A model generated the notes under the pieces. That model was not told the origin of the DNA. It saw only the letters and a list, made by a program, of their open reading frames with translations, and did no database searches. This document shows, piece after piece, positions 191 through 31,970 of a stretch of 32,023 bases of DNA. The number at the start of each line of letters is the position of its first letter. The first letter of the stretch is position 1. Origin of the DNA: Amoeboradix gromovi. Lineage: Eukaryota > Sanchytriomycota > Sanchytriomycetes > Sanchytriales > Sanchytriaceae. The position numbers were made by a program, and so were the translations under genes. The stretch lies in contig JADGIF010000032.1 in the NCBI GenBank assembly GCA_018985225.1, positions 1-32,023 of the forward strand. Direction: 5' to 3'.

Positions 191-901
191 ATGTCCCACA
201 TGGAGATTTCAGGGGGACTAATTCCCCACATTTTTGAGACATTTGTTTGAAAAGCATTCTAGCTTTTCGAGAGTTTAATTATGAACTCTTACATAATAAA
301 AAAACTCGAAGAGGAGAGCATTCTAGAAATAGTTATTGGAAGTGAGACAAGGGTAGAAAACAATGCGCTAATGGTGACAAAAGAATTAATCCTTGAGTAT
401 AAATTTGACAGTGGTGCGCTAGGCACAATCTTATATCCATTTCAAAAAACGTCGAATGGATATCAAAACTATTTGCAGCTGCAGTTATATTCTAAGAACC
501 ATTCTATTTGGCATCAAAGGAAGTTATTGAACCTTGACGATTTTTCACTGGTTTTGGGGCTTTACGACAGATTTCCTAACAATTATTATCTCTGCGACTA
601 TCTCTTTTGGAGTTACAACAAGAAACACTCATTGAATTTGCTCTCGAACGAATATGATATGCTTTTAGCTACTGCAAGAAAGTGGAACGACCATTCGATA
701 TTATGGTGTTGGTACCGGTGTTCAAGATTGCATATGCCATCTATAAGTATAAGAGTGCTGGAAATCATAGATAAGATGGCAAAGTCGCAGTGGAATTTTG
801 CCTTGGAAAATGTTATTTATGCCTTTTATTCTGAATATAAAATGGACAACTTATGTATGTATTTGGGGGCTTTAAATGAAAGGAGACTAATTTTAAAGTA
901 G
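191..901 (+). CDS. PTAR1-like protein prenyltransferase alpha-subunit repeat protein
   Basis: About 230 aa in two exons (191-244 and 263-901) joined across an 18-nt intron. PPTA repeats are the building block of farnesyl-, geranylgeranyl- and Rab-geranylgeranyltransferase alpha subunits and of the orphan PTAR1. Here one repeat is clear (NHSIWHQRKLL) and a second is weaker (around WNDHSILWCWYRC). The segment VTKELIL resembles the first PTAR1 repeat. The upstream exon adds ISGGLIP, which matches the PTAR1 N-terminal IDEIGLIP pattern. That match is why I start at 191 and not at the in-frame ATG at 281. The protein is shorter than typical family members. Its 3' end converges on the MyTH4-FERM gene with 43 bp between them. 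PTAR1-like is my best fit; a diverged Rab or farnesyl transferase alpha subunit is possible. Confidence 0.6.
245..262 (+). other. 18-nt intron in the PTAR1-like gene
   Basis: Sequence GTTTGAAAAGCATTCTAG, phase 0. If retained it gives an in-frame TGA at its second codon. Removal joins an N-terminal ISGGLIP stretch typical of PTAR1 to the main reading frame. Its length is a multiple of three, so support comes from the stop codon and the homology, not from a frame change. Confidence 0.55.
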
Positions 902-944
902 GCATGGCGTAAATTGTTAAACAATAAATCAAAATGATAGAAAT

Positions 945-2415
945 TTACTGGTTGTTCAAATAATGATTTATCTGCGACACTATCGCATGATTTGAAGAGC
1001 TTATAAGCATTATGGACTCTTGATTGTGAGCTGTTCCGGTTGTTATTTGCACAAGTGACTTCTCTATTTCGCAGCTAATAACCTGTGAAATTGGTATTGT
1101 AAGTTCGTGAGTCTCCCAGTTCATGAATTGAATCCTATTGTTGAAAACTAGCAGATTATTAGATGCCAGAACCTCGCATTTGATGTTATATCTGATTCCA
1201 CCAAAATAAGGAAGCCTTTCTATAACTTTTGGGATACTTAAAGCATGCGCATCATCCTTAAGTAATCCCTGGCTAAATATCTGTTTAACATTTGGTTCGG
1301 TATTGACATTCAAGACCAGCAGTCCTGCCTTTAGTAGAGACCTATACAGCATTACAACATCATCCTCATATGAATGGGACTTTAGCGGGACCCACATGCC
1401 TGTTTGCAAAAAATAGATTGAGTCTTCTACGTTGTCTTGGTTAAAGTAGATATCCCAGTTGTTGCGTCGAACCACCCAAGATGAGTTTTGGAATTTGCAG
1501 GTTTCACCCAAGCTAATTAGATCAAATATGTACTCATTGTCATTCAAATTAAAGCACTCTCCCAAAGAATCCCGCATGATAATGCAATAATCATCAATTT
1601 TTATCTTAAACATAGAATCTACTTGCATAATAACTTTTTTTCCGAGGTCATAATTGTTGATCGAGAGTTTTAGTATCTGGGAGTTGTATTCTAGCGTTAA
1701 AGTAAAGGTGTTTTCACATTTCTATATGAACGAAAAATACCTCATATTTTGTTATTTCAATACCACATGGCCTTTGGTGTCTCCTAGATATACTGTTTAT
1801 AGCCCTGTATTTCAGCTCAGCTACAATGTCATCAAATTGGCTTTGATTTGACCTGTTGATAGTATATATTACCATATGTCTTATTTCATCACTTATCGCC
1901 AGGTACGGAAATAACAAGGCAAACAAAGCCCAGCTTATGTTCAATGCTCCGCTTTTATTGTTCATCAGCTGTTTAAGTAATAGGCAGCATAGCTCATCAC
2001 TGTACTCAACGTTGTCCTTTGCAATGTCCAAGATACAGGAGCATATGCTTGGTTTTTCAAATTCTTTTCCTGTTTTCTCGTATCTTAATATTAAAGTAAA
2101 TAGTTGCAAACTTATCTCATTGCTGCTTGTCTGTTTTAGCAGCGACTTTTCAATCATGTAGTTTTGCCAGTTGGCGTTGGAATGTTTTCTTCCGTGTTTA
2201 CTTATATAGTCATGAAATGGTGTTTTATCGTCAAATGGGTCGTATGCTTTTCTTGTTGGCGATAAAGGAGACGGCAGTCCCATATAGATATTCAATATAG
2301 GACTAAATGAATAACCATCTGTCTCTGTAATTGTCAAATTTGGCGTGGTCTTGCTCTTTATAATTCTACTAATATTTTGTTCATACTTCACTGAAAGTGA
2401 CTCGTGGCTAGACAT
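945..2415 (-). CDS. MyTH4-FERM tandem protein without a myosin motor
   Basis: Two exons (2415-1741 and 1721-945) joined across a 19-nt intron give 483 aa. After a Ser/Pro-rich N-terminus, residues about 60-215 form a MyTH4-like helical domain, with signature stretches such as DELCCLLLKQLMNN and WALFALLFPYLAISDE. The sequence directly after the intron looks like a FERM F1 lobe. A helical F2-like part follows, and the last about 90 residues are PH-like, fitting FERM F3 (LVFNNRIQFMNWET, then IPISQVISCEIEKSLVQI). In known families MyTH4-FERM tandems sit in the tails of myosins VII, X and XV and in plant KCBP kinesin, where they bind microtubules and cargo or adhesion tails. No motor is present here. 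Its start lies 64 bp after the RPN6 stop on the same strand. The MyTH4 call is firmer than the FERM call. Confidence 0.65.
1722..1740 (-). other. 19-nt intron in the MyTH4-FERM gene
   Basis: On the coding strand it reads GTATTTTTCGTTCATATAG, phase 0. Retention leads to a TGA shortly downstream. Removal joins the MyTH4 reading frame to the FERM frame without any stop, giving two exons of 225 and 259 codons (the second including the stop). Confidence 0.7.
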
Positions 2416-2479
2416 TACACTAAAATATTATGGCCTAGATAAGCAAGCCTTTTATGATATTTGAAGTCAACAATAACAT

Positions 2480-3625
2480 TTATTTCGCCACCTGTCCTAC
2501 TTTTTGAAATAAAGAATCCACTACCACCTCTAGTTTCTTCATGGCCTCAATACTGGTGTGATATAAAATGTCATCATTTGCCTTTTCGAATATAATCAAC
2601 ACCCCCATATTCTGGTCTAATATTCCATTTAGCTCTGAATCCAATATCATCTGACTAATTTTATGCTCCACCTGATCCATGGGCAAGTTCAAGATGCTTG
2701 AAACATGTGAGATTTGCACTCTTTCATATGGCTCGATTACTCTAGTTAAATTGCTTGTAAGCAATCTATCATACAGAAATCTCAATTGCACGGCAATGAC
2801 AGGATCACTAGTTAGTGCTAAATTAGTTTAAAATTCACCTGGATGGTCTTTTAATGCCAAATCAAAATCATGCAAAACACGAGATTTACAAGCTTTCTGA
2901 ATCTTTAATAACCCGACGATGCGATCATCTTTGTTGTCAATGATATACTTGTTGTTTCCCAGATCATCGTTGTTCATTATCTGAGTCAGAATTAACCAGC
3001 TTAAATGCTGCTGATAGTCTTTGTTAATGTGATGCAACTGCTCAACTGTCTCATAAAAGTAAGAATAAGCAATTGTGTATTCCTTATCTAGCAAGTGAAC
3101 AAGACCGCTTTGCTCGTCCAGTTGCAGCTGAACTACGGGAGGAACGTACATTTGGTGACTTAGCGTTTTAGCAGCAACCAAAGCACCTTTAGATTTGTTT
3201 GTGTTCTTGAGATAATAATAAGCTCTACTTTGTTGAATAAAGACTTGAAGAAGCAATTGCTTATCATCTAATTTCTTTAACGGGACAGTAATTGAGTCAA
3301 TTTTGATCAAGGAATCATTGTATAAATGATTACTCAATAAAAGTTCTATGTAAAGATGTTCCAGCTGAAATAGAAGATATTGAAGGTTGGTATCTTTGAT
3401 CTGGACTAATAATTTATCGAAGATGGATCTCTTCTGATCAATATCACCTTCAACAAGGGATAACCTATTTACCGCATGCTTCACAAATTTGGTTAGCTGT
3501 GGGACGGAAAGTTTGGACATCTGAGGATTATTGACTAAAATTTGTTCAAGTTGGTCGATATTAGCTTTATCAGATTGTGAAATCATTTCTTCCATTGGAC
3601 GGAGAAGTGTTGCAAAAAACAACAT
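2480..3625 (-). CDS. RPN6: 26S proteasome lid subunit RPN6 (PSMD11)
   Basis: Exons 3625-2839 and 2817-2480 joined across a 21-nt intron give 374 aa. RPN6 is a PCI-domain scaffold of the proteasome lid that clamps lid to base and core. The second exon holds the winged-helix PCI end with the family stretches NLTRVIEPYERVQISHV, KISQMILDSELNGILDQ and VVDSLF. The first exon holds the helical repeats, including IAYSYFYE and DFDLALKD, which match the PSMD11 stretches TAYSYFYE and DFEKALTD. The usual length is about 420 aa, so the N-terminus is shorter. The first ATG of the frame is at 3625; ATG at 3595 (MEEM) is an alternative. The next gene on this strand starts 64 bp downstream. Confidence 0.92.
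2818..2838 (-). other. 21-nt intron in RPN6
   Basis: Coding-strand intron, phase 1. It begins GTGAATTTTA and ends ACTAATTTAG, the latter containing a branch-point-like CTAAT just before the acceptor. Retention puts a TAA in frame within the intron. Splicing yields KDHPALTSDPVIAVQLRFLY, which aligns with the PSMD11 segment that follows DFEKALTD with one residue fewer. Confidence 0.85.
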
Positions 3626-3628
3626 CAA

Positions 3629-4911
3629 GAAGAAAATAAATAGATATATGGTAGGCTTTGCAAAATGGCCGCACTAAGAACCAAGAGGAGTGCCTTGGAA
3701 TGTAAGACAGAGTTAATTCAAATCCTTTATTTCTTCGTACCCACTGTAATGATAACAATAACAAACTACCATACTTCTGGTGATAGTTATCGCTTATTTT
3801 TCATTTTTTTGTATCTTTGAGTCATTAGGAATGAATTACAATCATGAAAGACAAAAAGGGACTTACCATTGATTTGGTTCAAAGAATTATCTCAGTAGCT
3901 CTAAGAGAAAGCTGGTCAACGGTTACTATCGTGTTAACATTTTAAAAACCTTGGTAGGATAAAAACGCAGCTAAAAACAAAAAATGTCTTGCATTAGAAG
4001 TTAAGTACGCATGAAACCCAAATTTGCGCCAAAGAGCTAAAATGGTCTACTTTTATGGACCAGCCTTGCAGATTATCGCCCGATTGTGCTCTGATCGTTC
4101 ATAAATGTAGCTATCAATTTGAATTGAATCAACCGTGTTGCTCCAATATAATCTTTTTCTATACTTTTTTGAAATCATAAAAGTTTGATAACCTTCTTTC
4201 TCATCAAGTGCAAATAGGTCTAAAATCTCTCATTTTGATTATCTAAATCTAAAGAAATCATCACTAGATGGGGGCTTGCTCTTTCATGCTCAAAGACTGG
4301 TCTAAGAATGCCATTGCGCATGTACTCTCAATATTAGGAATTCAATTTGTTGCCAGTCTTGCCGCCCATCATTTCTCAAGAGATTTTATGAGGTTAAGCT
4401 AATTGTAGCAGTATCTCCATCCACGACTGCACCGTATCGGACACACTGGTGCAACCCTAGACATCTGCAAGATTGCTGAATGCTTTTTTATCTGCCAAAG
4501 TCACCATTGCTCAAGGAACAGTATTTAATACTTTTGAATAAGCAGACATAACACCGTTCTATTAATAGCATAAAATAGTTTCTTGTTCGGGATGCTGAAA
4601 GTTCCTGCTTTTGTGCCGGTAACTTCCATCACCACAGGTAATATCCATTTCATAACTTCATTCACTTCACTTCATCTAATCTTGTGTACCTTCTCGCTGT
4701 ACCATAGTACTTCATATTTGCTGCCAATACCTTTGCCGCCACAAGACCCGACTTACCCGAATTATCTAATTTCCATTGTAATTTTAGTTTGTTGTTATGG
4801 TAGAATAAGATTTTTGTAATCTAGTTTCGCATTTTTAAACGGATGTTGTTCGTCTTTTAACCCAATTATTTTTTCTTTGTCATCACTTTTACCCCTCTTG
4901 TCTATATTTCA
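3629..4911. other. Gene-poor spacer, about 1.3 kb
   Basis: I see no convincing gene here. A 33-codon ORF on the plus strand (3844-3945, MKDKKGLTIDLVQRIISVA at its start) has a helix-like composition. It vaguely recalls the N-terminal helix-turn-helix of Tc1/IS630-type transposases, but nothing else of such an element is visible. An ORF at 4583-4819 is rich in Thr, Leu and Ser with no family signature and is probably chance. The remainder has many stops in all frames. Confidence 0.5.
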
Positions 4912-5110
4912 CAGCTCGATTGTTTTCTTGAATAAATCATTATTGCGAATTTGTATGCATTTTTATATGATCTCAAGACTTTTCCAGATTTTTCTAATAC
5001 CTTAAACACTCGATATTCTTCCTTTTCGCAAACGGTAAATCAACTCTAAATAAATAACTAGCAGGTGCAGCATACATTCATCAACACTGATAAGCTGGTC
5101 CAAACACGGA

Positions 5111-5335
5111 AAATTCGAGGCCATGTACAATATTTGGCACTCTAAAGAAAACCAATTTGGAGAGCTATTCATGTACATAGTGTCGTTTGCAAGTCGACAT
5201 GGACCACATGGCACCAAGGAACAAATTCGATGCCATGTACGAGGTATGGTACTTTAAAGAAAACCAACTTAGAAACCTGAACCTGTACAAATTGTCATTT
5301 GAAAGTAGATAGAGATCATATGAAAGCAAGGAACA
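5111..5335 (-). repeat. Tandem duplication, period about 112 bp, within copy X
   Basis: Unit one is 5111-5222 and unit two 5223-5335. Both begin AAATTCGA.GCCATGTAC on the plus strand and end near AAGGAACA. Read on the minus strand each encodes a pattern like L.ND..Y...S.NWFSL......YMASN. The two units have diverged substantially, and one has lost frame relative to the other. Copy Z at the window end has a related single unit (PNWCSPEYCNLYM). Confidence 0.75.
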
Positions 5336-5481
5336 TATACATCAAGTATCTGCATCCTTATTCAATCCCGCCTCAGTGTAGTGAAAGCGTGAGCAATCAC
5401 TGTAACGGGGATCTAGCATTAGTTTCTCTGTGGAAATTCTCGATTTTATCGGAAATCAGGTCTTTTAATGAGGAGAGCATG

Positions 5482-5545
5482 GGACACCAAATATAAAAAC
5501 TAGACCAAGTCGTTTTTAAAGGGGGTGCTCCATAAGGAGGAAATT
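5482..5545 (-). promoter_or_regulatory. Leader-like motif copy A (5' end of decayed family copy X)
   Basis: On the minus strand it reads GGTCTAGTTTTTATATTTGG followed by TGTCCC and then the ATG of copy X. The same about 65-bp block, with few changes, is found on the plus strand at 13251-13313. That includes the upstream part TTTCCTCC.TATGG.GCACC. Its T-rich core just before an ATG suggests promoter and 5' leader DNA. This role is inference. Confidence 0.5.
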
Positions 5546-5802
5546 AATAAAAGTCCTTCTTTAAAATAAAACAACATGACCCAATATCTCTTTCAAATAA
5601 GGTCTTTGAGTATCTTATCTGTTCCATTTTCTTGTTCCTCTTACCACCTTTCATATAACTTATTTTTTGTTTTCTCTTCTTCTTATTAACCATTGTTTCT
5701 AAGATTTTGATGGATGAAAAACTTTTATACTAAAATAATTTACTTGAAACAGTCAGATGAATTTAATTCGCTATCGGCTAACACAGTTGAAATAAGGATT
5801 TA

Positions 5803-5846
5803 AACTATTTCAGAAAGTTAGTCCAGTCTTTATATTTGATGTCCCC
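5803..5846 (+). repeat. Leader-like motif copy D, upstream of the 42-aa gene
   Basis: It reads AACTATTTCAGAAAGTTAGT, then CCAGTCTTTATATTTGATGT and CCC. It closely matches the reverse complement of 31971-32019 and of 12971-13020. It lies directly upstream of the small ORF that starts at 5859, so it may act as its promoter or leader. Confidence 0.6.
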
Positions 5847-5858
5847 TGTGTTTTTAGT

Positions 5859-5987
5859 ATGTCCCGAAAATTTCAGGGTTTAGCAGTGGCTTCAATTATT
5901 GGTATCGGAACTGCTTCTTATATATATCTCCCAATAATTCAAGAACTGGAGAAATTGAAGACTAAAAGCAATGAAGAAACTGGCTGA
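5859..5987 (+). CDS. 42-aa single-pass membrane protein (PIGBOS-like)
   Basis: The ORF encodes 42 residues starting MSRKFQGLAVASIIGIGTAS and then YIYLPIIQELEKLK. One hydrophobic helix (about residues 7-22) is followed by a charged, amphipathic tail. This layout (a few basic residues, a Gly-rich helix, Y-I-[YF]-x-P, acidic/basic tail) resembles human PIGBOS1, a microprotein of the mitochondrial outer membrane, and similar small mitochondrial proteins. The match is short and could be convergent. The ATG context (TTTTTAGTATGTCCC) resembles that of other gene starts in the window, and AATAAA follows the stop within 15 bases. Mitochondrial location is inference. Confidence 0.5.
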   Translation: MSRKFQGLAVASIIGIGTASYIYLPIIQELEKLKTKSNEETG

Positions 5988-6218
5988 TTTTAACTGAATA
6001 AATCGTTTATAGCGATTACGTGAATTTCATCGCACCAATGACTCTTTTCTAGAAACTTTCAATTGAATGAAAATGGAGACACAAGCAAGGCGACGGTAAG
6101 AAGCTTGTCAATGCTTTGAAATCTGGCGGTTTCATTAAATACAGATCTCGGTTTATTACTCTTCCTTTATTTCGAGCTTCAATTTATCAGGTGAAATAAG
6201 AAATACAGTATTTATTAT

Positions 6219-6825
6219 TTATAACTTGATTTTCGGCTTCCCTAAAAAGTTTCTGACAAACCAAACTTGTAAAATTGCTGAAGTTATCATAATAGAAGAT
6301 TCTAAAAGCGCAAATGTGAAGATTCTATTTTCCGTATTTTCGACCGTATGCATATTACGGCGAACTCTAACGGAATAAAATCGAGAATTTTTCATGTAAC
6401 TACTTATGGCATTGTATGTCTCATCAACGTATTTATCAAGAACACCAGTATCTGTCTACATAAAAATCAATTACCTTTGGTTTCTGCTGGATACCATACT
6501 CCCCTTCTACAGTAATGTCTACTGCAACTTCTTTTAAAGCTACGCTGCTCTTTCCGTTCCAAAAGCAAAACGAGTATTCCCCAATCTTCTCTAAAGCAAA
6601 CACCACATCCGTCTGTTTTTCTTTCTCCCCATGAACTAGAAGTGTCTGCGCCGGATCCTTTACTTCATAATCTGTGTCAAATTCACCTCCATTCTGAACC
6701 GCGAAATAGAAGCCTAACTTCTTAGAGTTTTGCTCCGAGGTTGCGAAGTGATAAAAGCACTGCTTTTCCGCAGGCTGAATAATAACATATAAAGACAAGG
6801 CTATGGAAAATTGCCAAAGAAGCAT
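6219..6825 (-). CDS. p24 (emp24/GOLD) family cargo receptor
   Basis: Exons 6825-6475 and 6455-6219 joined across a 19-nt intron give 195 aa, the usual p24 length. p24 proteins are type I membrane proteins of COPII and COPI vesicles that cycle between ER and Golgi and sort cargo. The order is: signal peptide (MLLWQFSIALSLYVII), GOLD domain with two cysteines (KQCFYHF near the start, GEYSFCFWN near the end), coiled-coil neck, one membrane span (IFTFALLESSIMITSAILQV) and a short cytosolic tail WFVRNFLGKPKIKL. The ATG at 6825 puts the signal peptide first. The frame is open further upstream, but that would overlap MED10 and bury the signal. MED10 ends 94 bp upstream on the same strand. Confidence 0.9.
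6456..6474 (-). other. 19-nt intron in the p24 gene
   Basis: Coding-strand sequence GTAATTGATTTTTATGTAG, phase 0. Read through, the protein ends after a few residues at TGA. Spliced, it runs into the coiled coil, membrane span and tail expected of every p24 protein. This is one of the best supported introns here because the missing part is fully recovered. Confidence 0.92.
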
Positions 6826-6919
6826 AGTTTGAAGGAGAACATTTCTTTGTCTCAAGATTATAGTAGATGGGAATACAAGTTTAGATTCCGTTTTTAAGTA
6901 TAGCCGTAGTATGTGCTGT

Positions 6920-7267
6920 TTATTCAGTAAATTTAAGATTTCGCAAATGTTCTTTAGCCTTGAGAAAAGCCATCTTTTTAGATTTTGTCTGGTCAATTGA
7001 TTTTATACGATGCCAGGCTTGCAACTGCCCATACTGGTCTGGATTTATTCCCTCGTCTACATATCTTACAATATCTGTTGGTATCTCGACATCTGATTCC
7101 AAATCAATTATACCCTTGTAAAGCTTTAAGAGACATAATAAATCTTTCTCCACTGCCTCATTCTTTTCTACTTTTTTGATTGTCTGAGCAAGTTGATTTA
7201 AACACTCGATCATTCTGTCTTCTTCATTGGTTGACATGCAGGAGTGTTTGGTAAACAACAGGGACAT
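6920..7267 (-). CDS. MED10: Mediator complex subunit MED10 (NUT2)
   Basis: 115 aa. MED10 is a small middle-module subunit of Mediator that links activators to RNA polymerase II in the nucleus. The diagnostic segment is EIPTDIVRYVDEGINPDQY, matching the family pattern [VI]P..[VL]..Y[IV]D.G.NP..Y. An N-terminal helix of about 40 residues and a C-terminal basic helix also fit the family. The ATG at 7267 is preceded by TTTTCATATAGC and followed by TCCCTG, the context seen at several other starts. ATG at 7237 (MSTNEED) is an equally plausible start by protein sequence. p24 follows 94 bp downstream. Confidence 0.82.
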   Translation of the reverse strand: MSLLFTKHSCMSTNEEDRMIECLNQLAQTIKKVEKNEAVEKDLLCLLKLYKGIIDLESDVEIPTDIVRYVDEGINPDQYGQLQAWHRIKSIDQTKSKKMAFLKAKEHLRNLKFTE

Positions 7268-7322
7268 GCTATATGAAAACTAATCTGGGTTAAAGCAAAA
7301 GACAAAAAGAGATTTTGGGTTA

Positions 7323-7469
7323 TTAGATTCGCAATCTTACATCAAATCCGACATATAATAGAGGTATTGGTATGATATTGGCTGCGAATAAGTATTGCAA
7401 ATGGTAGCAAAAGAACTTGTCCGAAAGCGATTCGCAACGGTGAAGATTGGCATGACAAAGCATAGCCAT
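7323..7469 (-). CDS. Small unknown ORF, start uncertain
   Basis: A minus-strand frame is open from 7577 to a TAA at 7323. Its first ATG is at 7469 and gives 48 aa beginning MAMLCHANLHRCESLSDKFF. The frame upstream of this ATG also reads like protein. A short intron could therefore supply an earlier start (for example from the ATG at 7561 in another frame), but I find no donor and acceptor at 18-21 nt. The competing frame from 7561 to 7337 gives 74 aa with no recognisable feature. I do not recognise either product. It fills a spacer of about 540 bp that would otherwise be empty. Confidence 0.25.
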   Translation of the reverse strand: MAMLCHANLHRCESLSDKFFCYHLQYLFAANIIPIPLLYVGFDVRLRI

Positions 7470-7717
7470 TGCAGTATCGAAGGAAGAAAATAGTGTGGTC
7501 TCTTTGTTGAAATTATCCTCTTCTGCATTAAATGACTTGTGTTTTGATTCGCATGTTCCACGACCAGACTCAGTCGGCTAAAAGAGTACTATGATGCAAA
7601 CTCAAGGGTACAAAGATAAAAAAAGCGCTTAACAGAAGATAAAAGCGGTATGTTTTTAGACTTGTAAATACTGCGCCTATTATTGACTAGTTGCATGATT
7701 ATACAATTAGATTACTT

Positions 7718-7778
7718 AGTTAATTTCTCTGTAGAAATTCTCGATTTCTCGGAAATCAGGACTATCAATGAAGAGCCT
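7718..7778 (-). repeat. Fragment W of the decayed multicopy family
   Basis: About 60 bp matching the 5' part of copies X (near 5420-5475) and Y (near 15390-15450). Read on the minus strand all share a peptide like SSL.VLIS.KSRISTEKL. Its centre is the near-palindrome GATTTCTCGGAAATC. No other part of the family is seen here, so it is a remnant just upstream of the 93-aa gene. Confidence 0.65.
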
Positions 7779-7810
7779 CACCAGCTACCTTATTTTTTCC
7801 AAACATTTAA

Positions 7811-8092: not shown

Positions 8093-8124
8093 ATAAAATA
8101 TTGGCGCAAGTATTTTGCAGTTTA

Positions 8125-9473
8125 TTAAACGTCAATAACATGGGATTGAGTCTTTCCTGAAGAAACTACATTGCCGGGCAAAACGAAGCAGCTTTGGAGC
8201 TCGCAATCGTCCTCTACAATGCAGTTTTCTAAAATAATACTGTTCACTATTCGACAGTTTGCTCCTATTTTCACGTATTTTCCAATTATGCTTTTCTTTA
8301 TAACAGTTTTTGACTTTATTTGCACAAAGTCATCTATAAAGCAATCGTTTCCAATTGCTGTTCCCTCTGAAGTCTCAAAATTTTGTCCAATTAGACCAAC
8401 CGAGTTCTAAATTAATATTGAACAACCATTTTAATATATTCAAACACGTTCTCTTCAAATTGTAAATCGAAAATATAGCTGGGCTGCGTAATTGGGACAA
8501 GAAAATGCAGCACTTTAATTTTCTTCATGACCTTTATGGAGCACTCTAAAGACATGGACTCTTCAATTAAATCATCATCTGCAGTCATACATTCTGAGTG
8601 TGTTGTGCTAAAAGAAAGTGCTTCGCCTATAATTGAGTTGTTGTCATTTTTAAAAAACTTTAAAATGTTTCTTTCTTTTAAAAAGTGAGGGTTATATTGT
8701 GCTTGAATAAGATCCATCATTACATCATGCAAATCAGAGTATCTATGACTCATTACCCATTGGAATACCCAATTTCTGCAAATCATTATCGGAGGAATTT
8801 CGTATTGACGTGTAAAATTGATTTTGGGAAAAACGTTTAGGATGCTATGGTGAACTTTGTGTTTGATGTCATCAATTACTGCATAACAAATCCTGTCATC
8901 AGCAGTGCCAATTAACCACTTCAGTCTATCATGGCCATAAAAATTGGGCCGACCGCCAAGTTTTTCAAGTTTATCAACAACTTTGCAGTCAACCATGGGA
9001 ATGAAAGAATCGCAGTCAGCACCGTTATACTCTTGTAAGATAAGTTGCAGAGGGATATTTGATATCACAAAAGGATTTAAAAATACGACATCACTGCTCC
9101 ACTGAATTTGCTGCAGGCAGCCACTTAAAGTTTTCGAGCTTTTGATATCACAAAGATCCAAATTATTAGTAGTCAGCAACTCAAGCAAATACTTTTCGAT
9201 ATGCTTTACGCTATCATCGTGACAGCAAATATGAACGTTTGTGCCATTGCTACAGTCATAAGCATACCTGATGCAGACCTCAAGCAAAGATTTTGATAGT
9301 AGGTTTGTTGTTAGTTTAATATTTGGGAACTGATCTGGAAAGCACAATATAGCAATGCAGATACTGACTGTCATCTGGAGTTGAGTTAGTTTTGAATAAT
9401 AAAATATCACTCCTTGACAAGTTTGGGAAGCAAAAACTAGCAAGCTAGATCCTGTTTCCGAAATTGAACTCAT
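8125..9473 (-). CDS. Translation initiation factor eIF2B subunit gamma
   Basis: Exon one (9473-8427) and exon two (8406-8125) give about 442 aa; the human protein is about 452 aa. eIF2B gamma pairs with epsilon in the guanine-nucleotide exchange factor for eIF2. The N-terminal two thirds resemble a nucleotidyltransferase-like fold. VVFLNPFVISNIPLQLIL matches the strand after which the family reads VLSCDLITD, and ILNVFPKINFTRQYEI matches ILQKHPRIRFHTGL. Exon two is a left-handed beta helix of hexapeptides (IKSKTVIKKSIIGKYVKIGA), highly typical of eIF2B gamma. The Gly-rich nucleotide loop near the N-terminus is not visible, so the active-site fold is degenerate. The ATG at 9473 is the first of the frame; ATG at 9374 aligns better with the family N-terminus. 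Confidence 0.85.
8407..8426 (-). other. 20-nt (or 17-nt) intron in eIF2B gamma
   Basis: Coding-strand sequence GTTGTTCAATATTAATTTAG, phase 0, with an in-frame TAA inside it. The same acceptor with the second GT as donor gives 17 nt (8407-8423), also in phase 0 and leaving one extra Val. The ending ATTAATTTAG resembles the RPN6 intron ending ACTAATTTAG. Splicing joins the transferase-like domain to its beta helix. Confidence 0.85.
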
Positions 9474-12970: not shown

Positions 12971-13020
12971 TCTAGTTTTTACATATGGGACATCAAATAT
13001 AAAAACTGGACTAACTTTCA
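12971..13020 (-). repeat. Leader-like motif copy B, imperfect palindrome
   Basis: On the minus strand it reads GTTAGTCCAGTTTTTATATT, then TGATGTCCCATATGTAAAAA and CTAGA. The two halves CAGTTTTTATAT and ATGTAAAAACTAG are inverted relative to each other, so the copy can form a stem-loop. No gene is seen downstream of it. Confidence 0.6.
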
Positions 13021-13250
13021 GTAACAACTTGGAGCATTACTTCAGCTTTATTACTTTATGGATTTAAGAGGCGAGTGGACATTTAGCTAGTTGCGGAGTT
13101 GACGAGTATAAAAGGAAAAGAGTACCGTCTAAGAAAATGCACCTTTTGCTTAGATGCTCAAAGACCTCATATCTAGTTTTATTTTGAAGAGTGGATTGAA
13201 AGTAATGAGAGAAAATTGGTATAACAGAAGAAGATCTTTTATTAATGATA

Positions 13251-13313
13251 GCATTTCCTCCGTATGGTGCACCTTTAAAAACGAGTTAGTCTAGTTTTTA
13301 TATTTGGTGTACC
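13251..13313 (+). repeat. Leader-like motif copy E
   Basis: About 63 bp closely matching 5545-5482 on the other strand. Shared parts are TTTCCTCC.TATGG.GCACC, TTTAAAAACGA and GTCTAGTTTTTATATTTGGT. Copy X of the decayed family has its ATG right after this block. Here CATATTTACTTG follows and no ORF is visible, so only the 5' part of the family is left. Confidence 0.65.
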
Positions 13314-13825
13314 ATATTTACTTGTAACATCCAGTTTATAGCCTCCTGTCATACACAGTTGTAGTCACCTTGACACAAGATAGCATTTTGAAAAGTTTAA
13401 CTTCTTAAGATTAAATGCTTTCTTATCTTGACTTTTTGACAATTTACGACTAATTCAACGTTTGGTATCCCATATGTAAAGTGCGCAGTTAGAAATAATT
13501 TGTGTTAAAGAGGTTATTCCGCCGTTAGATTATTTAAATATGAACACCAGATGAGAGAAAACGTTAACCTCAGAAGATTAAAATGCTCCAATTGTTGTGA
13601 TGACAGCCAGCGAGTACGGCTTAGCAAGTTGTGATAGAGTAGTACCTACTCAATTTGTCTACACTGCAGAAACGTGAACTCCGATTATTGGAGAACTTCG
13701 CATTTAACCTAGGCGTTGCTTACTTGAAAATCACTCGATTTACTGTATTTCAGGTGGTATAGACACTTGGAGCAGTGGTCCCAACAAGATGTAGAGTATC
13801 CTGGGAGCTTTAAAGAGTGCATTGC

Positions 13826-14404
13826 CTACGTTAAATACAAAATACGCTGTCCAACTGGGCTGTGCAACCTTGGATAAACATGGTTTCCAAACCAGTAACA
13901 ATGTCCAACAATTAGCCCGATTATATCATGCCATGGCACATGGTTTTGCAATACGAAAGATATGGAAATCATTATTATTGGATAATAACTAGCGTAAAAA
14001 GTGAACAACCCAAAGAATGAGAAAAGCAGCGAAGCATTAAGCCTGCTCCAAATATAAATAATCATAAATGAGAGGCTAAAAGACATGAATGGAAAATCTA
14101 TAAAAATGTTTAAAAAAGTTAAACTAACGCAGCCTAAAATCAGCATATACAGCACTTCTATGCTATTAAGAATCTCTTCTAATGACGTCATATATCTAAT
14201 CATGAAGTAGAGATGGAACAAAACATCAATACTTACACTTCCGAAATATAAATAGCTTGTAACAATTCGATATATTTGCAGTTTCTTAAATACATAAGTG
14301 TATTTAAACATGATTGTAATCGGGTTGAATACTTGCATTTGAACTAGTACAAACAGAATTGCTACACCGGCTAAGTAGCCCTTGGTTATTGGAGGCATTG
14401 CCAT
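13826..14404 (-). CDS. Derlin (DER1-like) ERAD membrane protein
   Basis: 192 aa. Derlins are rhomboid-fold pseudoproteases of the ER membrane that take part in retrotranslocation of misfolded proteins. The start MAMPPITKGYL fits the family pattern of a short N-terminus with PxxT(R/K). Further hallmarks are the first helix LAGVAILFVLVQMQV, YRIVTSYLYFG, and a central run of hydrophobic helices. Near the C-terminus, HDIIGLIVGHCYWFGNHVYP matches the derlin end (GxxVGHxYxFxxxVYP). The tail is only about 15 residues, so an SHP box for Cdc48/p97 binding is not evident. No neighbour within 400 bp on this strand. Confidence 0.88.
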   Translation of the reverse strand: MAMPPITKGYLAGVAILFVLVQMQVFNPITIMFKYTYVFKKLQIYRIVTSYLYFGSVSIDVLFHLYFMIRYMTSLEEILNSIEVLYMLILGCVSLTFLNIFIDFPFMSFSLSFMIIYIWSRLNASLLFSFFGLFTFYASYYPIIMISISFVLQNHVPWHDIIGLIVGHCYWFGNHVYPRLHSPVGQRILYLT

Positions 14405-14930: not shown

Positions 14931-15450
14931 CTATTTGTCGGAGAAATGGTGGAACAGCTCGATTGTTTTCTTGAATAAATCTTTTATTGCGAATTTGTAT
15001 GCATTTTTATATAATTTCATAACCTTTCCAATACCTTAAATACTCAATATTCTTCCTTTTTACAAATGGTAAATGGAAATAATGGATGTAATCTCGAATA
15101 TGTCAAATCTAAAGAAATAATTAACAGGCACAGCATACATTCATCAAAATTGAGAAACTGATCCAAAAATGGAACAATTAGATGTCTTTCAATGCCTAGA
15201 ATGAGATGGACAGTAAAAATAAACTTGTAGATCGTTTATTTAATAATTCTTGCTATTGGTCTTACCGAATATGCGACAATAGAGAGTATGTGACAACAAG
15301 GAATATACACAAATATATGTATCCTTATTCAATCCCGCCTCGGGGTAGTAAAAGCGTGAGCAATCACTGTAACCGAGCATCTGGCATTGCTAGTTTCTCT
15401 GTGGAAATTCTCGATTTCTTAGAAATCAGGACTTTTAACGAGGAGTCTAT
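14931..15450 (-). pseudogene. Decayed copy Y of the local multicopy gene family
   Basis: It parallels copy X (4912-5475) but lacks the leader motif and the tandem unit. On the minus strand it shows in order SSLKVLIS.KSRISTEKL, LLNKRSTSLFLLSISF, ERHLIVPFLDQFLNFDECML, SLDLTYSRLHPLFP, and a clean C-terminus GKVMKLYKNAYKFAIKDLFK ending at a TAG (14931). Stops and frame changes separate these blocks. Comparison with X and the window end shows conservation at the peptide level. The plus-strand ORF at 15206-15454 runs antisense to this and is probably a by-product. Function unknown; helical, Leu-rich. Confidence 0.6.
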
Positions 15451-20973: not shown

Positions 20974-21051
20974 CTAACAATTTTGGCGGCATTTTTGTGT
21001 AACAACCTCTATATTAACCTGGTCTACAAACTTTAATTTTTCTTGCACTCC

Positions 21052-22440: not shown

Positions 22441-22441
22441 A

Positions 22442-24178: not shown

Positions 24179-24217
24179 GAAGGAGATTAATTTTCATAAT
24201 TAAATCTTTTTGTAAAC

Positions 24218-26485
24218 ATGGGAGTAGCAAACCTCTGGCAACTAGTACAACCAACTGGCCATGAAGTTCAATTGGAAACTCTTCGCAATAAAATTGTAGC
24301 TGTGGATGCATCGATTTGGATATACACTTTTATTCGTAGTTTACATAACCATGGGGAATTTAGTTATTTACTGGGCTTTCTGAAAAGAATAGCCAAACTA
24401 CTATATTACGGTATCAGGCCTGTATTTGTATTTGACGGTAGGCCTCCGCAGCTAAAAAAGCGAGTGATTAATGCTAGAAGAAACAAAAATGAATTTGACC
24501 CTAAGAAACTGGCTTTACAAATCATGAATGATCCTAAAATAATTCACAACATTAACCCCAAAAATGATATGTATAAAATGCCTTTCGTCAATAATAAATT
24601 TACTAATTCCAACAATGATATTAGAATGCCTCTGCTTCCTCAAGAATTTGTAAACGCGTTTGAACAGTACCAACACGTTAGTACACTACATAGAAACAGC
24701 AGATCCTCAAATACCCAACAACAGCTTGAGATACATTCTACTACGGACCCACTTGAATTTAGTAAAATGCAGGTCAGAAATGTTCAATATCGCCATAATG
24801 TTACTAACGAACTTCACAAAGTAATTGGAATGAACCAAGAGAAACCTCTATTGGGAAACAGACTCAAGTCATACAAGTTTTCAAAAAGTACCAGCAATGT
24901 GCAGGATTTTCATCCAGAATCAAACTGGTTTGATGATACTACGGATAACGACCACCAGCTATTCAATACTTGTGACAAAACCGAGTCTCTTTATGTTGAA
25001 GATAGCCAAAATATTGAGCTTCATAGTGAAAACAATTCAGTTATTGATTTAATTTCTTCCGAGTCAGAGTTTGAAGATGTTGCACCATCTGCGGATACTC
25101 CATTTAATGCAGATATAGATTGGTTCATCGCTTCATGGCAACCCTTCGCACCGCCCAGAACATTCAAAATATTTGATTCTACAATTTTTTATGACTTGTT
25201 CCAACTGAGCGGAACTGACATTAAAGCAAAGATTGCAGAGCTTTCCAAATATAGAGATAGCGCATTCAAGGAATCTTACTTGTATATTATTCAGTATTTG
25301 GATGCTATATTGGAATACAAACATATGAACACTGGTTATAGAAACTTTAAACCTGAGCCTACTAAATCGAAGCCGTCGTTCTCTTATGCCACTAACGACG
25401 TTGTTAAACCTCAAAACCAGTCAAGCTTAATCAGGTTGTTTCAAACAGCTCCAAAAATACAAAAAATAAAAATTATTAAAAATGAAAAGTTGTTTAAGAT
25501 AAACTACGAATCGCCGTCATTGCCTGATATGCCGAAAGCAGATGAAATTAGTGAGAATAATATAGAATTGGCAATTGTAGACACAAATTTGATGGATACA
25601 GATACATCCATTGTTAACGAAATTCATCACGCTCAAGTCAGTGGCGTAAAATCAGAAGACTTGTCAAATGATCCTTCAAAAGCAACACAACCAACGGCTC
25701 TAGGTTCTAATCCAGTACAGTCTGCCACAATAAGTAGTGAAATGTTGTTAGAATGCATGCATCTTTTAAAACTATTTGGAATACCTTATATCGTAGCACC
25801 GCAAGAAGCAGAAGCACAATGCGCTTATTTAAATCAGAATAAACTGGTAGATGGGATAATAACAGATGACAGTGATGTGTTCTTGTTCGGCGGCATAGAC
25901 ATATACAGACACATATTCAAAAACAACATGCAAGTAGAGCATTTCAATACAGAACAAATTCAAAGCGATTTAAGTTTAAATAGACAAGATTTTGTAGACT
26001 TGGCGCAATTATTGGGTAGTGACTATTGCTTGGGATACAAAGGAGTAGGTCTCATAACAGCGATGGAAATACTATTAGAATTTGGCGATTTAAAAGGGTT
26101 CAACAGATACTGTATGCAAATTCAATCCGGTCACAAAAATGATAGAAACGATAAATTCAAAACTATAGCAAAAAAAGTGTTGATACCGAATGCATATGAG
26201 ATTCAGCAAATCGAAGATGCTTATCTGAGGCCAATAGTAGACGAAAACAAAGAGGAATTCGTGTTTGGGGAGATATTGTTGGAAGAATTAAAGGATTTTT
26301 TGAATATGAAATTAAAATGGGAACATAGCAAAACAGAAGAATTACTAGGACCTGTAATAGAGGCACAAAAGAATAGAAAACTGAGTGGATATCAACAAAC
26401 ACTGAATTTTAGTAAAAGCGGTAAAGAAATTAATTACGGAAGTAAACGGCTGACTCAAGTTATGGAACTGTTTAGGCAGAGGTAA
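24218..26485 (+). CDS. XPG/RAD2-type structure-specific endonuclease
   Basis: 755 aa. XPG cuts the 3' side of bubbles in nucleotide excision repair. The N region begins MGVANLWQLVQPTGHEVQLE and holds VAVDASIWIY and VFVFDGRPPQLKKRVINARR. A long low-complexity spacer (about 95-500) separates it from the I region, as in RAD2. Inside the spacer a hydrophobic-acidic stretch (NSVIDLISSESEFEDV) could bind TFIIH, which is inference. I-region catalytic motifs are APQEAEAQCAYLN (about 530), ITDDSDVFLFGG (about 548) and GSDYCLGYKGVG (about 598). The C-terminus QQTLNFS is a possible PCNA-binding box. The length is below the usual 1,000 or more residues because the spacer is short. PGS1 starts 15 bp after the stop. 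Confidence 0.93.
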   Translation: MGVANLWQLVQPTGHEVQLETLRNKIVAVDASIWIYTFIRSLHNHGEFSYLLGFLKRIAKLLYYGIRPVFVFDGRPPQLKKRVINARRNKNEFDPKKLALQIMNDPKIIHNINPKNDMYKMPFVNNKFTNSNNDIRMPLLPQEFVNAFEQYQHVSTLHRNSRSSNTQQQLEIHSTTDPLEFSKMQVRNVQYRHNVTNELHKVIGMNQEKPLLGNRLKSYKFSKSTSNVQDFHPESNWFDDTTDNDHQLFNTCDKTESLYVEDSQNIELHSENNSVIDLISSESEFEDVAPSADTPFNADIDWFIASWQPFAPPRTFKIFDSTIFYDLFQLSGTDIKAKIAELSKYRDSAFKESYLYIIQYLDAILEYKHMNTGYRNFKPEPTKSKPSFSYATNDVVKPQNQSSLIRLFQTAPKIQKIKIIKNEKLFKINYESPSLPDMPKADEISENNIELAIVDTNLMDTDTSIVNEIHHAQVSGVKSEDLSNDPSKATQPTALGSNPVQSATISSEMLLECMHLLKLFGIPYIVAPQEAEAQCAYLNQNKLVDGIITDDSDVFLFGGIDIYRHIFKNNMQVEHFNTEQIQSDLSLNRQDFVDLAQLLGSDYCLGYKGVGLITAMEILLEFGDLKGFNRYCMQIQSGHKNDRNDKFKTIAKKVLIPNAYEIQQIEDAYLRPIVDENKEEFVFGEILLEELKDFLNMKLKWEHSKTEELLGPVIEAQKNRKLSGYQQTLNFSKSGKEINYGSKRLTQVMELFRQR

Positions 26486-26500
26486 TTCTAATTCTAATAA

Positions 26501-27601
26501 ATGGATTTTTATTTATATTATACTGAAACCATGATTTCAATCTTGCCAACTCCTGGAGCTTTCAAAAATCAGATGGATTTATTTCTTAAAAATAGTGCTA
26601 GAGTGAAACTTTCATCACTGTACTCTGGAGATGAAATAAAAAAGGGTATTCTAATAGTGGACGGGCAGAGAAGTAAAAGGTCACCTAGCGCCTTTCCGAA
26701 TACAAAATATTATGTACGGCAACAAGGTTGGATAAACAGCAGATTCATCCCGAGTCCACTAAATGAGCTTGGAGAATTATATCATTGTAAGCTGTATGTG
26801 TTCGACAAGCATGTTATATTAACAGGAGCTAACCTAGGTAAGGAATACTATACGAATAGAAAAGACAGGTATTATGTTATTAAGAATCATCATTTTGCTG
26901 ATATGATGGATGAATTGCTGTCATTTATGTTACAGACTAACGCATTTCAAAGCAATCCAGATGAAGAAAGGAAACTGGACATCTCAGGAGTAAAGCAAAT
27001 ACAGAGATGGAGCAACTTTCAGTGCCGAAAGATCGAAAATACATTTAGACATATGCCAAAAGGAACACATATCCTGCCTATTCTTAATTGGCCAAGACTG
27101 GGCATTAAGTTTGATATTTTAAGGTTTTTGAGGACCTTCTATCCTGACAATTTATTTACTTTAAGCACAGCTTACTTCAATCCTGGCGCCGAATTGACGG
27201 ATATGATCAGCAGAAATGCTACCGTAATTGCTCCGAGCATAGACACTCATGGTTTTCATAACGGAAAAGGACTCAAGAAGTACATTCCTCTTCTTTACCA
27301 AGATATGGTTAATAAAAATGACATAAAAACGTGGTCAAAAGAGGGAAGTTCTTATCATGCCAAAGGGATATGGATTGAGGACAAAGAACATATTGTAACA
27401 GTTATTGGGAGTAATAATTATGGCAGCAGATCATCAAAAGATGTGGAATTAGATTTCATAATCTTGACAGATGATATGATGGTGAAAAATGAAATTAAAA
27501 ATGAAATTGATGGCATTTTAAAGAATTGCAAGAATAGAGATGTCGTTAAGCTACCTTTTTGGATCAGCTTAGTAAGCAAAGCGACTTCTCGCATTTTATA
27601 A
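26501..27601 (+). CDS. PGS1: CDP-diacylglycerol--glycerol-3-phosphate 3-phosphatidyltransferase (PGS1)
   Basis: 366 aa. The enzyme makes phosphatidylglycerol phosphate, the committed step to cardiolipin, in mitochondria. It belongs to the phospholipase D superfamily and has two HKD-type motifs. The first is HCKLYVFDKHVILTGANLG, with YTNRKDRYY after it (about residue 96). The second is HAKGIWIEDKEH with VIGSNNYGSRS (about 286). PGS1 also has the LHTP-like segment before the first domain, here ILPTPGAF. The stretch between SLYSGDEI and GILIVDGQRS is about 25 residues shorter than in animal PGS1. The ATG at 26501 overlaps AATAAATGG, so XPG's poly(A) signal may share the start codon; ATG at 26531 is an alternative. 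SYS1 starts 18 bp downstream. Confidence 0.92.
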   Translation: MDFYLYYTETMISILPTPGAFKNQMDLFLKNSARVKLSSLYSGDEIKKGILIVDGQRSKRSPSAFPNTKYYVRQQGWINSRFIPSPLNELGELYHCKLYVFDKHVILTGANLGKEYYTNRKDRYYVIKNHHFADMMDELLSFMLQTNAFQSNPDEERKLDISGVKQIQRWSNFQCRKIENTFRHMPKGTHILPILNWPRLGIKFDILRFLRTFYPDNLFTLSTAYFNPGAELTDMISRNATVIAPSIDTHGFHNGKGLKKYIPLLYQDMVNKNDIKTWSKEGSSYHAKGIWIEDKEHIVTVIGSNNYGSRSSKDVELDFIILTDDMMVKNEIKNEIDGILKNCKNRDVVKLPFWISLVSKATSRIL

Positions 27602-27619
27602 TAAATTTTGAAACCTTGC

Positions 27620-28066
27620 ATGTTTAGAAAATTAGAGGCGTCCTCGCTATCTCTTCAAATATTTGCTATGTTATCAGCTCATTTTCTAATATTTAGCATA
27701 TTCGTGATGTTTATGCATCTGTTTATTAATTATCCAATATCCTTGTATGCTATATTTTACCCATTTGGACTCTTTACAAGGTATTCTTTGCTTCTGAGTC
27801 TGTGTTACTTGCCTACCGTTTTAGTAACGTCCGTAATTTACTCAAAGCTGGTCATGAGGTACAAAATTGCATGGGACTTTGGGTTAACGCTTGTTATAAG
27901 TCAGCTTATTCTTTCGCTGTTGTATAGCCGCACAACTTCAACATGGTATCTGGGTATATTGGGTGTATATTGCGGACTGTTTATTTTACTAAGCCAATAT
28001 ATATGCATGCACTTTGAAACAGAGCCTATAGACATTCAAATGCAACCAATGAAGAGAAACGAATAA
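27620..28066 (+). CDS. SYS1: SYS1 Golgi membrane protein
   Basis: 148 aa from ATG 27620 (the open frame extends 12 bases upstream without an ATG). SYS1 is a four-span Golgi protein that recruits the GTPase ARFRP1/Arl3. Four hydrophobic spans are visible. The C-terminal third, AWDFGLTLVISQLILSLLYS then TSTWYLGILGVYC and QYICMHFETEPI, matches SYS1 closely (family: LDFAATLHLIHLLLCWLY, TSWTWWL, GEYLCMRRE). The stop TAA is part of AATAAATAC, a likely poly(A) signal. Confidence 0.9.
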   Translation: MFRKLEASSLSLQIFAMLSAHFLIFSIFVMFMHLFINYPISLYAIFYPFGLFTRYSLLLSLCYLPTVLVTSVIYSKLVMRYKIAWDFGLTLVISQLILSLLYSRTTSTWYLGILGVYCGLFILLSQYICMHFETEPIDIQMQPMKRNE

Positions 28067-28271
28067 ATACTTTATTTTTACTAGTTCTGCTTTAACGAAT
28101 TCTCAGCGATATGAATATTCTATTGTGCATAAAAGATTTAGATCTTTTGGTGGCCAAGCCAAAAGCGTCGGTGAAAGACACACGTTATCACAAAACTGCA
28201 TCATTTTACAGACGTACGCTCTACACGTCTCATGATGCAATACCATAAAATCTGTATCAGCCTGTTTATTC

Positions 28272-29418
28272 ATGCTATCCATTTTACCAATAATATATTG
28301 CAGTATCCAGCAAGATCATTGGGCTGAGGATTATCAATATACCGTAAGAACAGAAGAAAACAGCCAAAAAATCAGCTATGTAATGTTGGCTGATGAGCTA
28401 TATCAAGTTCCATGTGGAAGAAAAACTGCTGGTTGGGTAAGAACTATGTGGCATGACTTTGGTACTTACAGTCGAGTTGATAATACTGGGGGACTAGATG
28501 GAAGTATCATCTACGAACTAGGAAGGCTAGAAAATACTCGTTTAGACACCCCAACCTATAATTTGGCGAACAAAGCTAATACTTATGGTGTTTCGTTGTC
28601 CGATACAATTGCTCTTGCAGCGATAATAGCAATTAGAAAATGTGGAGGTCCAAAAATCCCTTTTTTTTATGGTAGAGAAGATGCAGCTTCAGCAAATCCT
28701 GGAGGCAGAATGCTGTTTACCAACGCAACGTTTGATATGATGACCAGCGCAATGATTGATGTAAACGGAATGTCTTTCCCCCAGTTTGTAGCCTCGATTG
28801 GTGTCGGGCATACAATTGGAAAACTAAATGCTGTACATATTACTAATGCAGGACTTTGGACCAATGAAGGAGGGCCCTCTTGATGTTACGATAGATTCAC
28901 CCAGCAGTTTTGATAATTTGTACTTTCAAACTCTTTTAAAAAATACAACAGTCTCTGGTTCTGGTGTTCCAATAACCAAATTTGCTAGCGATCAAATGCT
29001 ACTTACTAACGACTACTCTACTAGAATGGTTCGGCGCCTAAGCAGAAACCAGCCTTTGTTTTTCAAGCTTACTAATGCTGTAATAACGTATATGACGACC
29101 ATTGGCCATGATGATCTGTACTACTTAAATCTGTGGAAATTCATCGAAGGAGCAAGTTGCAAGTCTTCAGAATCGACTATTTCATATGGAAGTCCTAATA
29201 TAAATCAAGGACTCGGATCTGCAGCCACTGATCAGTCCAAGGGAAATGAAACTGTTAATGCGATTGATCCCAATGCAATAGTTACAAAACCAGGCGATAC
29301 AGTGGCTCAGACGACTTTAGCTGACGCAATGTCAAGAGCATTTACGCCAGTAACAAACGAAACTAAAATAACTGAAGGCGACTTACCAAAACCTGGTCCA
29401 GTAAATATGAAAAAATGA
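28272..29418 (+). CDS. Secreted heme peroxidase (plant/fungal/bacterial superfamily)
   Basis: Exons 28272-28832 and 28852-29418 joined across a 19-nt intron give 375 aa. The distal site is GWVRTMWHDFGTYSRVDNTG (Arg about 57, His about 61). GGLDGSI, CGGPKIPFFYGREDA, the proximal site SIGVGHTIG (His about 180) and SSFDNLYFQTLL follow in canonical order. The distal WHD..TY..TGG layout is closest to class I enzymes (cytochrome c or ascorbate peroxidase). GADGSI-like and cysteine features recall class II. The start MLSILPIIYCSI is a probable signal peptide, and the C-terminal 70 residues are a Ser/Thr/Asn-rich extension. It probably acts outside the cell or in the secretory system. The dehydrin-like gene converges on it with 27 bp between stops. 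Confidence 0.88.
28833..28851 (+). other. 19-nt intron in the peroxidase gene
   Basis: Sequence GTACATATTACTAATGCAG, phase 0, with a branch-point-like ACTAAT just before the acceptor. Read through, the frame stops at 28881-28883. Spliced, the protein reads GHTIGKLNADFGPMKEGPLD and continues to the conserved FDNLYF, as in all family members. A +1 frameshift at TCT-TGA could also join the frames, but it gives a poorer fit. Confidence 0.9.
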
Positions 29419-31966: not shown

Positions 31967-31970
31967 TACA

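Follow-up and report, generated by a model that had tools for sequence, protein, structure and literature searches.

Introns elsewhere in Fungi are GT-AG introns of the U2 type with a TAAY-like branch site, features that recur in the introns described here. Introns of 15–17 nt are known in other eukaryotes (PMC9505925; PMC10245619), the commonest intron length in the Bigelowiella natans nucleomorph is 19 nt (70.3% of introns; PMC4494063), and 224 introns are reported for Mikrocytos mackini (PMC10245619). The main text of a fungal intron survey does not name the sanchytrids (PMC8476143), and our literature search for introns in the phylum Sanchytriomycota found no report. Here we analysed a stretch of 32,023 nt (the window) from the genome of Amoeboradix gromovi, together with further sequences of the same genome. 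The host is very probably a single-celled sanchytrid fungus that parasitizes algae. An earlier note on the window had proposed that six of its genes carry spliceosomal-type introns of only about 18–21 nt. We consider it very likely, judging from sequence evidence, that such segments are U2-type spliceosomal introns of near-minimal length (19–22 nt).

Candidate introns in the window

All six GT...AG segments claimed in the earlier note were found in place, with the lengths given there (18, 19, 21, 19, 20 or 17, and 19 nt), and the three YTAAT 3' ends were exactly as quoted. Five of the six are supported as introns (Table 1): leave-one-out scores against the genome intron consensus ranged from 11.1 to 15.9, and the five fit what appears to be one genome-wide intron type. 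The list of six genes was also incomplete, as it missed an intron in a derlin gene with a leave-one-out score of 21.2.

Table 1. Predicted introns in the 32,023-nt window, and one segment for which the intron claim was unsupported.
Feature	Position	Strand	Exons or remark	Sequence
19-nt intron, MyTH4-domain gene	1722..1740	-	exons 1741-2415 + 945-1721	GTATTTTTCGTTCATATAG
21-nt intron, RPN6	2818..2838	-	exons ~2839-3595 + 2480-2817	GTGAATTTTAAACTAATTTAG
19-nt intron, p24 (EMP24/GP25L) gene	6456..6474	-	exon 2 ~6218-6455	GTAATTGATTTTTATGTAG
20-nt intron (17-nt 8407-8423 less likely), eIF2B gamma-like gene	8407..8426	-	exons ~8427-9473 + 8125-8406	GTTGTTCAATATTAATTTAG
20-nt intron, derlin	13826..13845	-	exons 13846-14404 + ~13740-13825	GTATTTTGTATTTAACGTAG
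19-nt intron, ascorbate-peroxidase-like gene	28833..28851	+	exons 28272-28832 + 28852-29418	GTACATATTACTAATGCAG
18-nt segment, intron claim unsupported	245..262	+	score -5.8, without branch A at -6	

In four genes (p24, peroxidase, RPN6, and derlin), predicted removal of the segment restores conserved protein. For p24, the Pfam score rose from 66.7 bits for the first ORF to 118.5 bits for the joined protein, which covered positions 2–181 of the 182 in the profile. For the peroxidase, joining raised the score from 61 bits (profile 14–156) to 75.1 bits (14–236 of 237), and the alignment of the joined protein with ascorbate peroxidase ran through the junction. The RPN6 segment preserves the frame and contains a stop, and the joined protein aligned across the junction with solved RPN6/p42B chains, with a one-residue gap. 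In the relatives P0122, P0123, and P0124, readings of RPN6 that ignore introns stop at the same junction, with the tails RILY*, RIFD*, and CNID*, respectively, which supports an RPN6 intron position probably common to these relatives. The joined C-terminus of derlin aligned across its junction with Derlin-1 (7czb), while the Pfam DER1 score was hardly changed by joining (131.2 to 132.4 bits), with a match that stays short of the region past the junction.

The junctions in the eIF2B gamma-like and MyTH4 genes are based on the motif and on open frames, and homology leaves both unpinned. The MyTH4 gene has 229 open codons upstream and 258 downstream of its intron (leave-one-out score 11.5), and joining did not raise its domain score (28 to 26.2 bits). 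The earlier note had held that joining restores family sequence in p24, RPN6, the peroxidase, and eIF2B gamma; homology bears this out for the first three. In eIF2B gamma, exon 2 matches the family, but the domain matches begin at residues 347 and 361 and the junction lies after residue 349. Scored without itself, this intron reached 11.1 as a 20-nt segment and 9.9 as a 17-nt segment, a mild preference for the longer form.

The segment at 245 is not supported as an intron. Besides its low score against the genome intron consensus and its missing branch A, the ORF there starts with its own ATG at 281, and the PPTA match is weak (E = 0.0073), with its strongest stretch 3' of the junction.

Genome-wide surveys

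For the frame-repair survey we used 26 sequences of this genome (270,993 bases) and required each segment to be flanked by open frames of at least 50 codons upstream and at least 40 codons downstream. Segments of the form GT...TAAYNNAG repaired frames 13, 6, 3, and 2 times at 19, 20, 21, and 22 nt, respectively, or 24 times in 271 kb. At the same lengths, the control donors GA, CT, TG, GG, and AT gave 3, 2, 1, 1, and 1 repairs, the control acceptors GA and AC gave none each compared with 24 for AG, and shifting the branch motif by one base in either direction gave 0 and 2. Above 40 nt, counts resembled those of the controls. The earlier note had proposed surveying the genome for short frame-repairing GT...AG segments. 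The signal emerged only when the branch motif was required. In a survey of all dinucleotide pairs without it, overlapping open frames produced many chance joins, and GT...AG (14 segments at 19 nt) did not clearly exceed TG...GA (12) or CT...AC (7).

Genome-wide, GTATTT...YTAAYNYAG pairs numbered 176, against 60 for the reversed pattern. Among the first 100 of the 176 matches, the spacing was 19 nt in 41, 20 nt in 15, and 21 nt in 5, so that 61 fell at 19–21 nt. A longer intron class was not apparent with these signals (47 matches at 46–76 nt, compared with 36 reversed), although longer introns with other signals would escape such a search.

A weight-matrix scan combined with a frame test, the matrix having been trained on introns that the scan later re-found, yielded 24 internal candidates plus 2 close to the 5' end and 7 close to the 3' end, 32 of them distinct, and the reversed sequence gave 1, 0, and 0, respectively. 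The total came to 36 candidates in 278,594 bases, of which the scan lost four, including the p24 and peroxidase introns of the window, by omitting segments with a read-through of at least 12 codons. At thresholds of 5 to 10, the matrix alone matched the reversed sequence more often than the real one; given that it does not discriminate by itself, every intron needs the frame test. Codon-bias exon scoring found no join shorter than 36 nt for any dinucleotide pair tried, its score threshold being probably too strict; this scoring was too weak (0.08 bits per codon), and open-frame length was used instead. Introns look sparse in this genome, with an estimated several hundred in the sequence analysed. 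The GC content of the genome sequences analysed was 36.1%, compared with 36.27% in the published A. gromovi genome, and agrees less well with that of Sanchytrium tribonematis.

Intron structure and splicing machinery

The commonest donor forms were GTATTT and GTAATT, with G at +5 in none of 29 introns. In most introns the branch A, within a TAAY motif, is at -6, counted from the 3' end; since TAAYNNAG had served to pick most of the introns, this consensus is in part circular. In this layout, a spacer of a few bases would separate the donor from a branch site near AYTAAY, and NYAG would follow. With the branch A so placed there would be no space for a polypyrimidine tract, and donor, branch, and acceptor would therefore probably be recognised as a single unit.

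Searches of the genome sequences recovered U2 snRNA with GUAGUA and U6 snRNA with ACAGAGA, the standard pairing boxes, as well as U4 snRNA, a full-length Prp8 of 2,206 aa, and a U2AF-like protein that scored below the family cut-off. This Prp8 matches the EukProt protein NODE_96_length_21330 residue for residue. U2, with its GUAGUA intact, would be able to pair with the branch site, and U6, with its ACAGAGA intact, would together with Prp8 catalyse the usual two steps. Model searches of the genome sequences, which are probably a partial genome, gave no match for U1 or U5 snRNA, and SF1-HH likewise had no match there; such negative results do not demonstrate that the genome lacks these components.

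These gaps bear on whether the introns, though real, are removed by a simplified or altered pathway, for example one in which U1 is missing or donors are recognised differently. The absence of G at +5 and the unmatched U1 and U5 models point that way, as does the report that U1 was likewise undetected in the nucleomorph genomes of three chlorarachniophytes, whose introns are ultrasmall (PMC4494063). Against this, only about two-thirds of the A. gromovi assembly was covered and snRNAs diverge fast, and we regard such a pathway as unlikely.

Host and relatives

Relatives of the host exist at 67–75% identity. Host and relatives formed a long-branched clade in trees of ornithine aminotransferase (40 sequences chosen from 120 listed) and of Prp8 (26 chosen from 120 listed), and among these chosen sequences neither tree placed the clade beside Blastocladiomycota.

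Discussion

Our results favour spliceosomal introns of about 19–21 nt, as the earlier note had proposed, given the length spike, the branch site in fixed register, the pairing boxes of U2 and U6, and the RPN6 intron position probably common to relatives. The same evidence supports its view that the introns mark an unusual lineage. A different origin of the breaks would be sequencing or assembly indels in a single-cell amplified genome, together with a few true pseudogenes, repaired by GT...AG segments through chance. The assembly was indeed built by SPAdes in single-cell mode, and the claimed repair at 245 does resemble chance; however, errors would explain neither a sharp peak at 19–21 nt in which GT, TAAY, and AG keep register nor the interruption of RPN6 at one and the same point in three relatives, and a simple indel leaves unexplained a 21-nt RPN6 segment that preserves the frame and contains a stop. 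We therefore judge this origin highly improbable. It is equally hard to credit that the segments stay in the mRNA and that translation gets past them through programmed frameshifting, bypassing, or stop readthrough, given that the donor, the branch A at -6, and the AG common to the segments are intron signals, from which known bypassing and frameshift signals differ in appearance, and that U2, U4, U6, and Prp8 are present in the genome.

Near-minimal spliceosomal introns would also matter for gene prediction. TransDecoder does not model introns. Published sanchytrid proteomes come from TransDecoder (v2) run on genomic contigs of a single-cell SPAdes assembly (PMC8371127). Intron-blind prediction would truncate proteins in this fungus, and in the sister assembly P0124 (EukProt) RPN6 is truncated at the junction. 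In the published proteomes, other intron-bearing genes have probably been truncated or fragmented likewise, and reports of lost genes or domains could be inflated as a result.

More tentatively, Sanchytriomycota may be one more lineage, independent of the others and the first among Fungi, in which introns have shrunk to a structural minimum (19 nt, with a Stentor-like branch offset). Such a lineage would be intron-poor, with introns toward gene 3' ends, donor recognition without G at +5, and perhaps no standard U1; we see this broader reading as possible but doubtful.

At 19–22 nt, the host introns are among the shortest known, and the earlier note was justified in remarking that they come close to the eukaryotic lower limit, though the 15–17 nt introns cited above (PMC9505925; PMC10245619) are shorter. 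In the examples compared, fungal introns elsewhere are longer, with a mean of 63 bp in Cryptococcus neoformans (PMC8476143). Chlorarachniophyte nucleomorphs (B. natans and relatives) resemble the host in having ultrasmall GT-AG introns, of 18–23 nt, but a nucleomorph is a relict algal nucleus with a tiny genome and about 800–1,000 introns (PMC4494063), whereas the host genome is that of a fungal nucleus, and its introns look sparse. The mikrocytids M. mackini and Paramikrocytos canceri are parasites with, as is probably the case in the host, a modest number of uniform, conserved ultrashort introns; however, these are 16–17 nt long, in non-fungal organisms with a highly reduced spliceosome (PMC10245619), in contrast to the full-length Prp8 and U2AF-like protein of the host. 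Uniform tiny introns occur in the heterotrich ciliate Stentor coeruleus, at 15–16 nt and without a strong branch consensus (PMC9505925), while the introns of the host, at 19–22 nt, mostly have a clear YTAAY. The known range of uniform ultrashort introns, previously ciliates, nucleomorphs, and mikrocytids, would thereby extend to a fungal nuclear genome, adding another case to the question of what fixes minimum intron length. In Stentor introns of 15 and 16 nt, the branch A mostly occupies positions 10 and 11, respectively, and is then the sixth base counted from the 3' end (PMC9505925). The offset in the host is identical, which suggests that the 3' part may be the fixed piece of the intron.

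Probable short introns in the window

All six GT...AG segments described in the earlier note (at 245, 1722, 2818, 6456, 8407 and 28833) are present in the window sequence, adjoining open reading frames for RPN6, p24, an eIF2B gamma-like protein, a MyTH4-domain protein, a peroxidase, and a short protein that matches PPTA weakly. The note had also held that joining the exons restores conserved family sequence, which Pfam gain and/or alignment bore out for p24, RPN6, and the peroxidase but not for the eIF2B gamma-like protein. Joining raised the Pfam score from 66.7 to 118.5 bits for p24 (6456) and from 61 to 75.1 bits for the peroxidase (28833), the latter with a nearly full profile and an agreeing alignment, and the alignment of joined RPN6 (2818) crosses the junction with a gap of only one residue. 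The candidate introns at 1722 (MyTH4 gene) and 8407 (eIF2B gamma-like gene) carry the branch motif and are flanked on each side by long open frames, which supports them; homology comparison of the joined proteins gave no support at either junction itself. Finding a MyTH4-domain protein in a fungus may be of note.

The segment at 245 was rejected as unproven: its score against the genome's intron consensus was -5.8, no branch A lies in register, and the ORF has its own ATG. A seventh candidate intron was found in the derlin gene, where its removal would yield a C-terminus that aligns with Derlin-1, the Pfam score staying nearly flat (131.2 to 132.4 bits).

Elsewhere in the window, intergenic DNA carries dispersed repeats that share a GGGACATCAAATATAAAAACTAGACTAAC-like core and may represent a promoter-like repeat or small mobile element. 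The dehydrin match of a Q/G/H-rich protein may be a low-complexity likeness.

Features of the window, with window positions
Feature	Position	Strand or orientation	Remarks
Derlin intron	13826-13845	-	consensus score 21.2, strong match; absent from the earlier list
MyTH4-domain protein	945-2415	-	
Q/G/H-rich protein	29446-30012	-	dehydrin match, E 1.9e-8
GGGACATCAAATATAAAAACTAGACTAAC-like repeats	5479-5522, 5802-5851, 12980-13033, 13272-13320, 31967-32020	direct and inverted	between genes
Second set, repeated intergenic blocks	4940-5111, 5343-5406, 7721-7778, 14984-15192, 15310-15448, 31819-31960		82-91% alike

Genome-wide survey

The genome searched comprised 6,779,989 bases in 366 contigs, one of them the window, with a GC content of 36.1%. 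Fetched stretches were scanned for GT...AG segments joining two open frames, the survey proposed in the earlier note; unaided, such joins showed no clear excess over controls in these stretches, but an excess emerged once TAAYNNAG was demanded at the 3' end, with 13, 6, 3, and 2 joins at 19, 20, 21, and 22 nt (26 sequences, 270,993 bases). In the same sequences, control donors GA, CT, TG, GG, and AT gave 3, 2, 1, 1, and 1 joins at 19-22 nt. Altering the branch or acceptor (TAAYNNGA, AATYNNAG, TAAYNNAC, ATAYNNAG, TTTYNNAG) left 0, 1, 0, 1, and 1, and shortening or lengthening the spacing after TAAY by one base left 0 and 2, respectively.

A position-weight scan combined with open frames gave 24 internal candidates plus 2 close to the 5' end and 7 close to the 3' end (27 sequences; 32 distinct, one being counted twice), vs. 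1, 0, and 0 in reversed sequence. Pooling both surveys with the p24 intron yielded 36 candidate introns in 278,594 bases, 19 of them 19 nt long, 9 of 20 nt, 6 of 21 nt, and 2 of 22 nt, in phases 0, 1, and 2 in 13, 13, and 10 cases. The pattern GTATTTN{0,30}YTAAYNYAG matched 176 times genome-wide, vs. 60 for its reverse; among the first 100 matches, 41 were 19 nt, 15 were 20 nt, and 5 were 21 nt, the other 39 being spread over 15 to 45 nt. At 46-76 nt there were 47 matches vs. 36 for the control, and thus no longer intron class is evident with these signals. Scaling by length suggests roughly 880 introns in the 6.78 Mb searched; simple arithmetic on the pattern excess, using the 7 of 29 introns that fit GTATTT...YTAAYNYAG, gives roughly 480.

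The consensus, partly a product of the selection criteria, has a GTA donor in 27 of 29 introns, T at +5 in 20 (G in none) and at +6 in 26, and A at -7 in 25; T at -8 and A at -6, both partly selected for, occur in all 29. Among the 31 candidates with both frame ends in view (five near stretch ends were excluded), 26 lie in the 3' half of the reading frame (sign test, 0.0002), at a median relative position of 0.77 measured from the first in-frame ATG or, failing that, the open frame's start. Introns in intron-poor genomes are usually biased towards the 5' ends of genes, the reverse of what is seen here.

Splicing machinery and relatives

The same genome contains U2 with GUAGUA, U6 with ACAGAGA, U4, a 2,206-aa Prp8 in a single open frame, and a U2AF-large-like protein scoring under the curated cut-off. 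Searches of this genome for U1, U5, and SF1-HH returned no match, and such a miss is no evidence of absence.

Prp8 is a letter-for-letter copy of a EukProt protein, and a second EukProt assembly represents a 73% relative. Trees placed the sequences in a long-branched clade with ENA and EukProt sequences; the best named matches were fungi for ornithine aminotransferase, and fungi and animals for RPN6. Relatives' RPN6 readings P0122, P0123 (ENA), and P0124 (EukProt) stop at the same point as the window's intron-blind reading P0121, the tails past the junction reading GEF for the window, vs. RILY, RIFD, and CNID for the relatives, each followed by a stop. Back-translation suggests that GT could sit, phase conserved, in the opening tail codon of all four. 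For the three relatives, a TAA stop following the final sense codon would spell YTAA, which is what a 19-nt intron of this kind should show there.

Comparison with other ultrashort introns

According to the available text of PMC8371127, the genomes of two sanchytrid species were assembled with SPAdes in its single-cell mode, and TransDecoder v2 supplied the translations; the published values are 10.5 Mb, 36.27% GC, and an N50 of 13,376 for A. gromovi and 11.2 Mb, 34.64% GC, and an N50 of 11,874 for S. tribonematis. In the available main text of that paper "intron" occurs once, within a reference title, and in the accessible part of a further sanchytrid paper it is likewise confined to a reference title. 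Among the matches listed in searches of the open PMC literature, no report of introns in Sanchytriomycota was found. The available portions of the respective papers describe introns of 18-23 nt in nucleomorphs (PMC4494063), 15-16 nt in Stentor (PMC9505925), and 16-17 nt in mikrocytids (PMC10245619), compared with 19-22 nt for the candidates here. Given these known kinds in other lineages and no report for the phylum among those matches, ultrashort introns are an already known kind, for which the lineage is, as far as could be seen, new.
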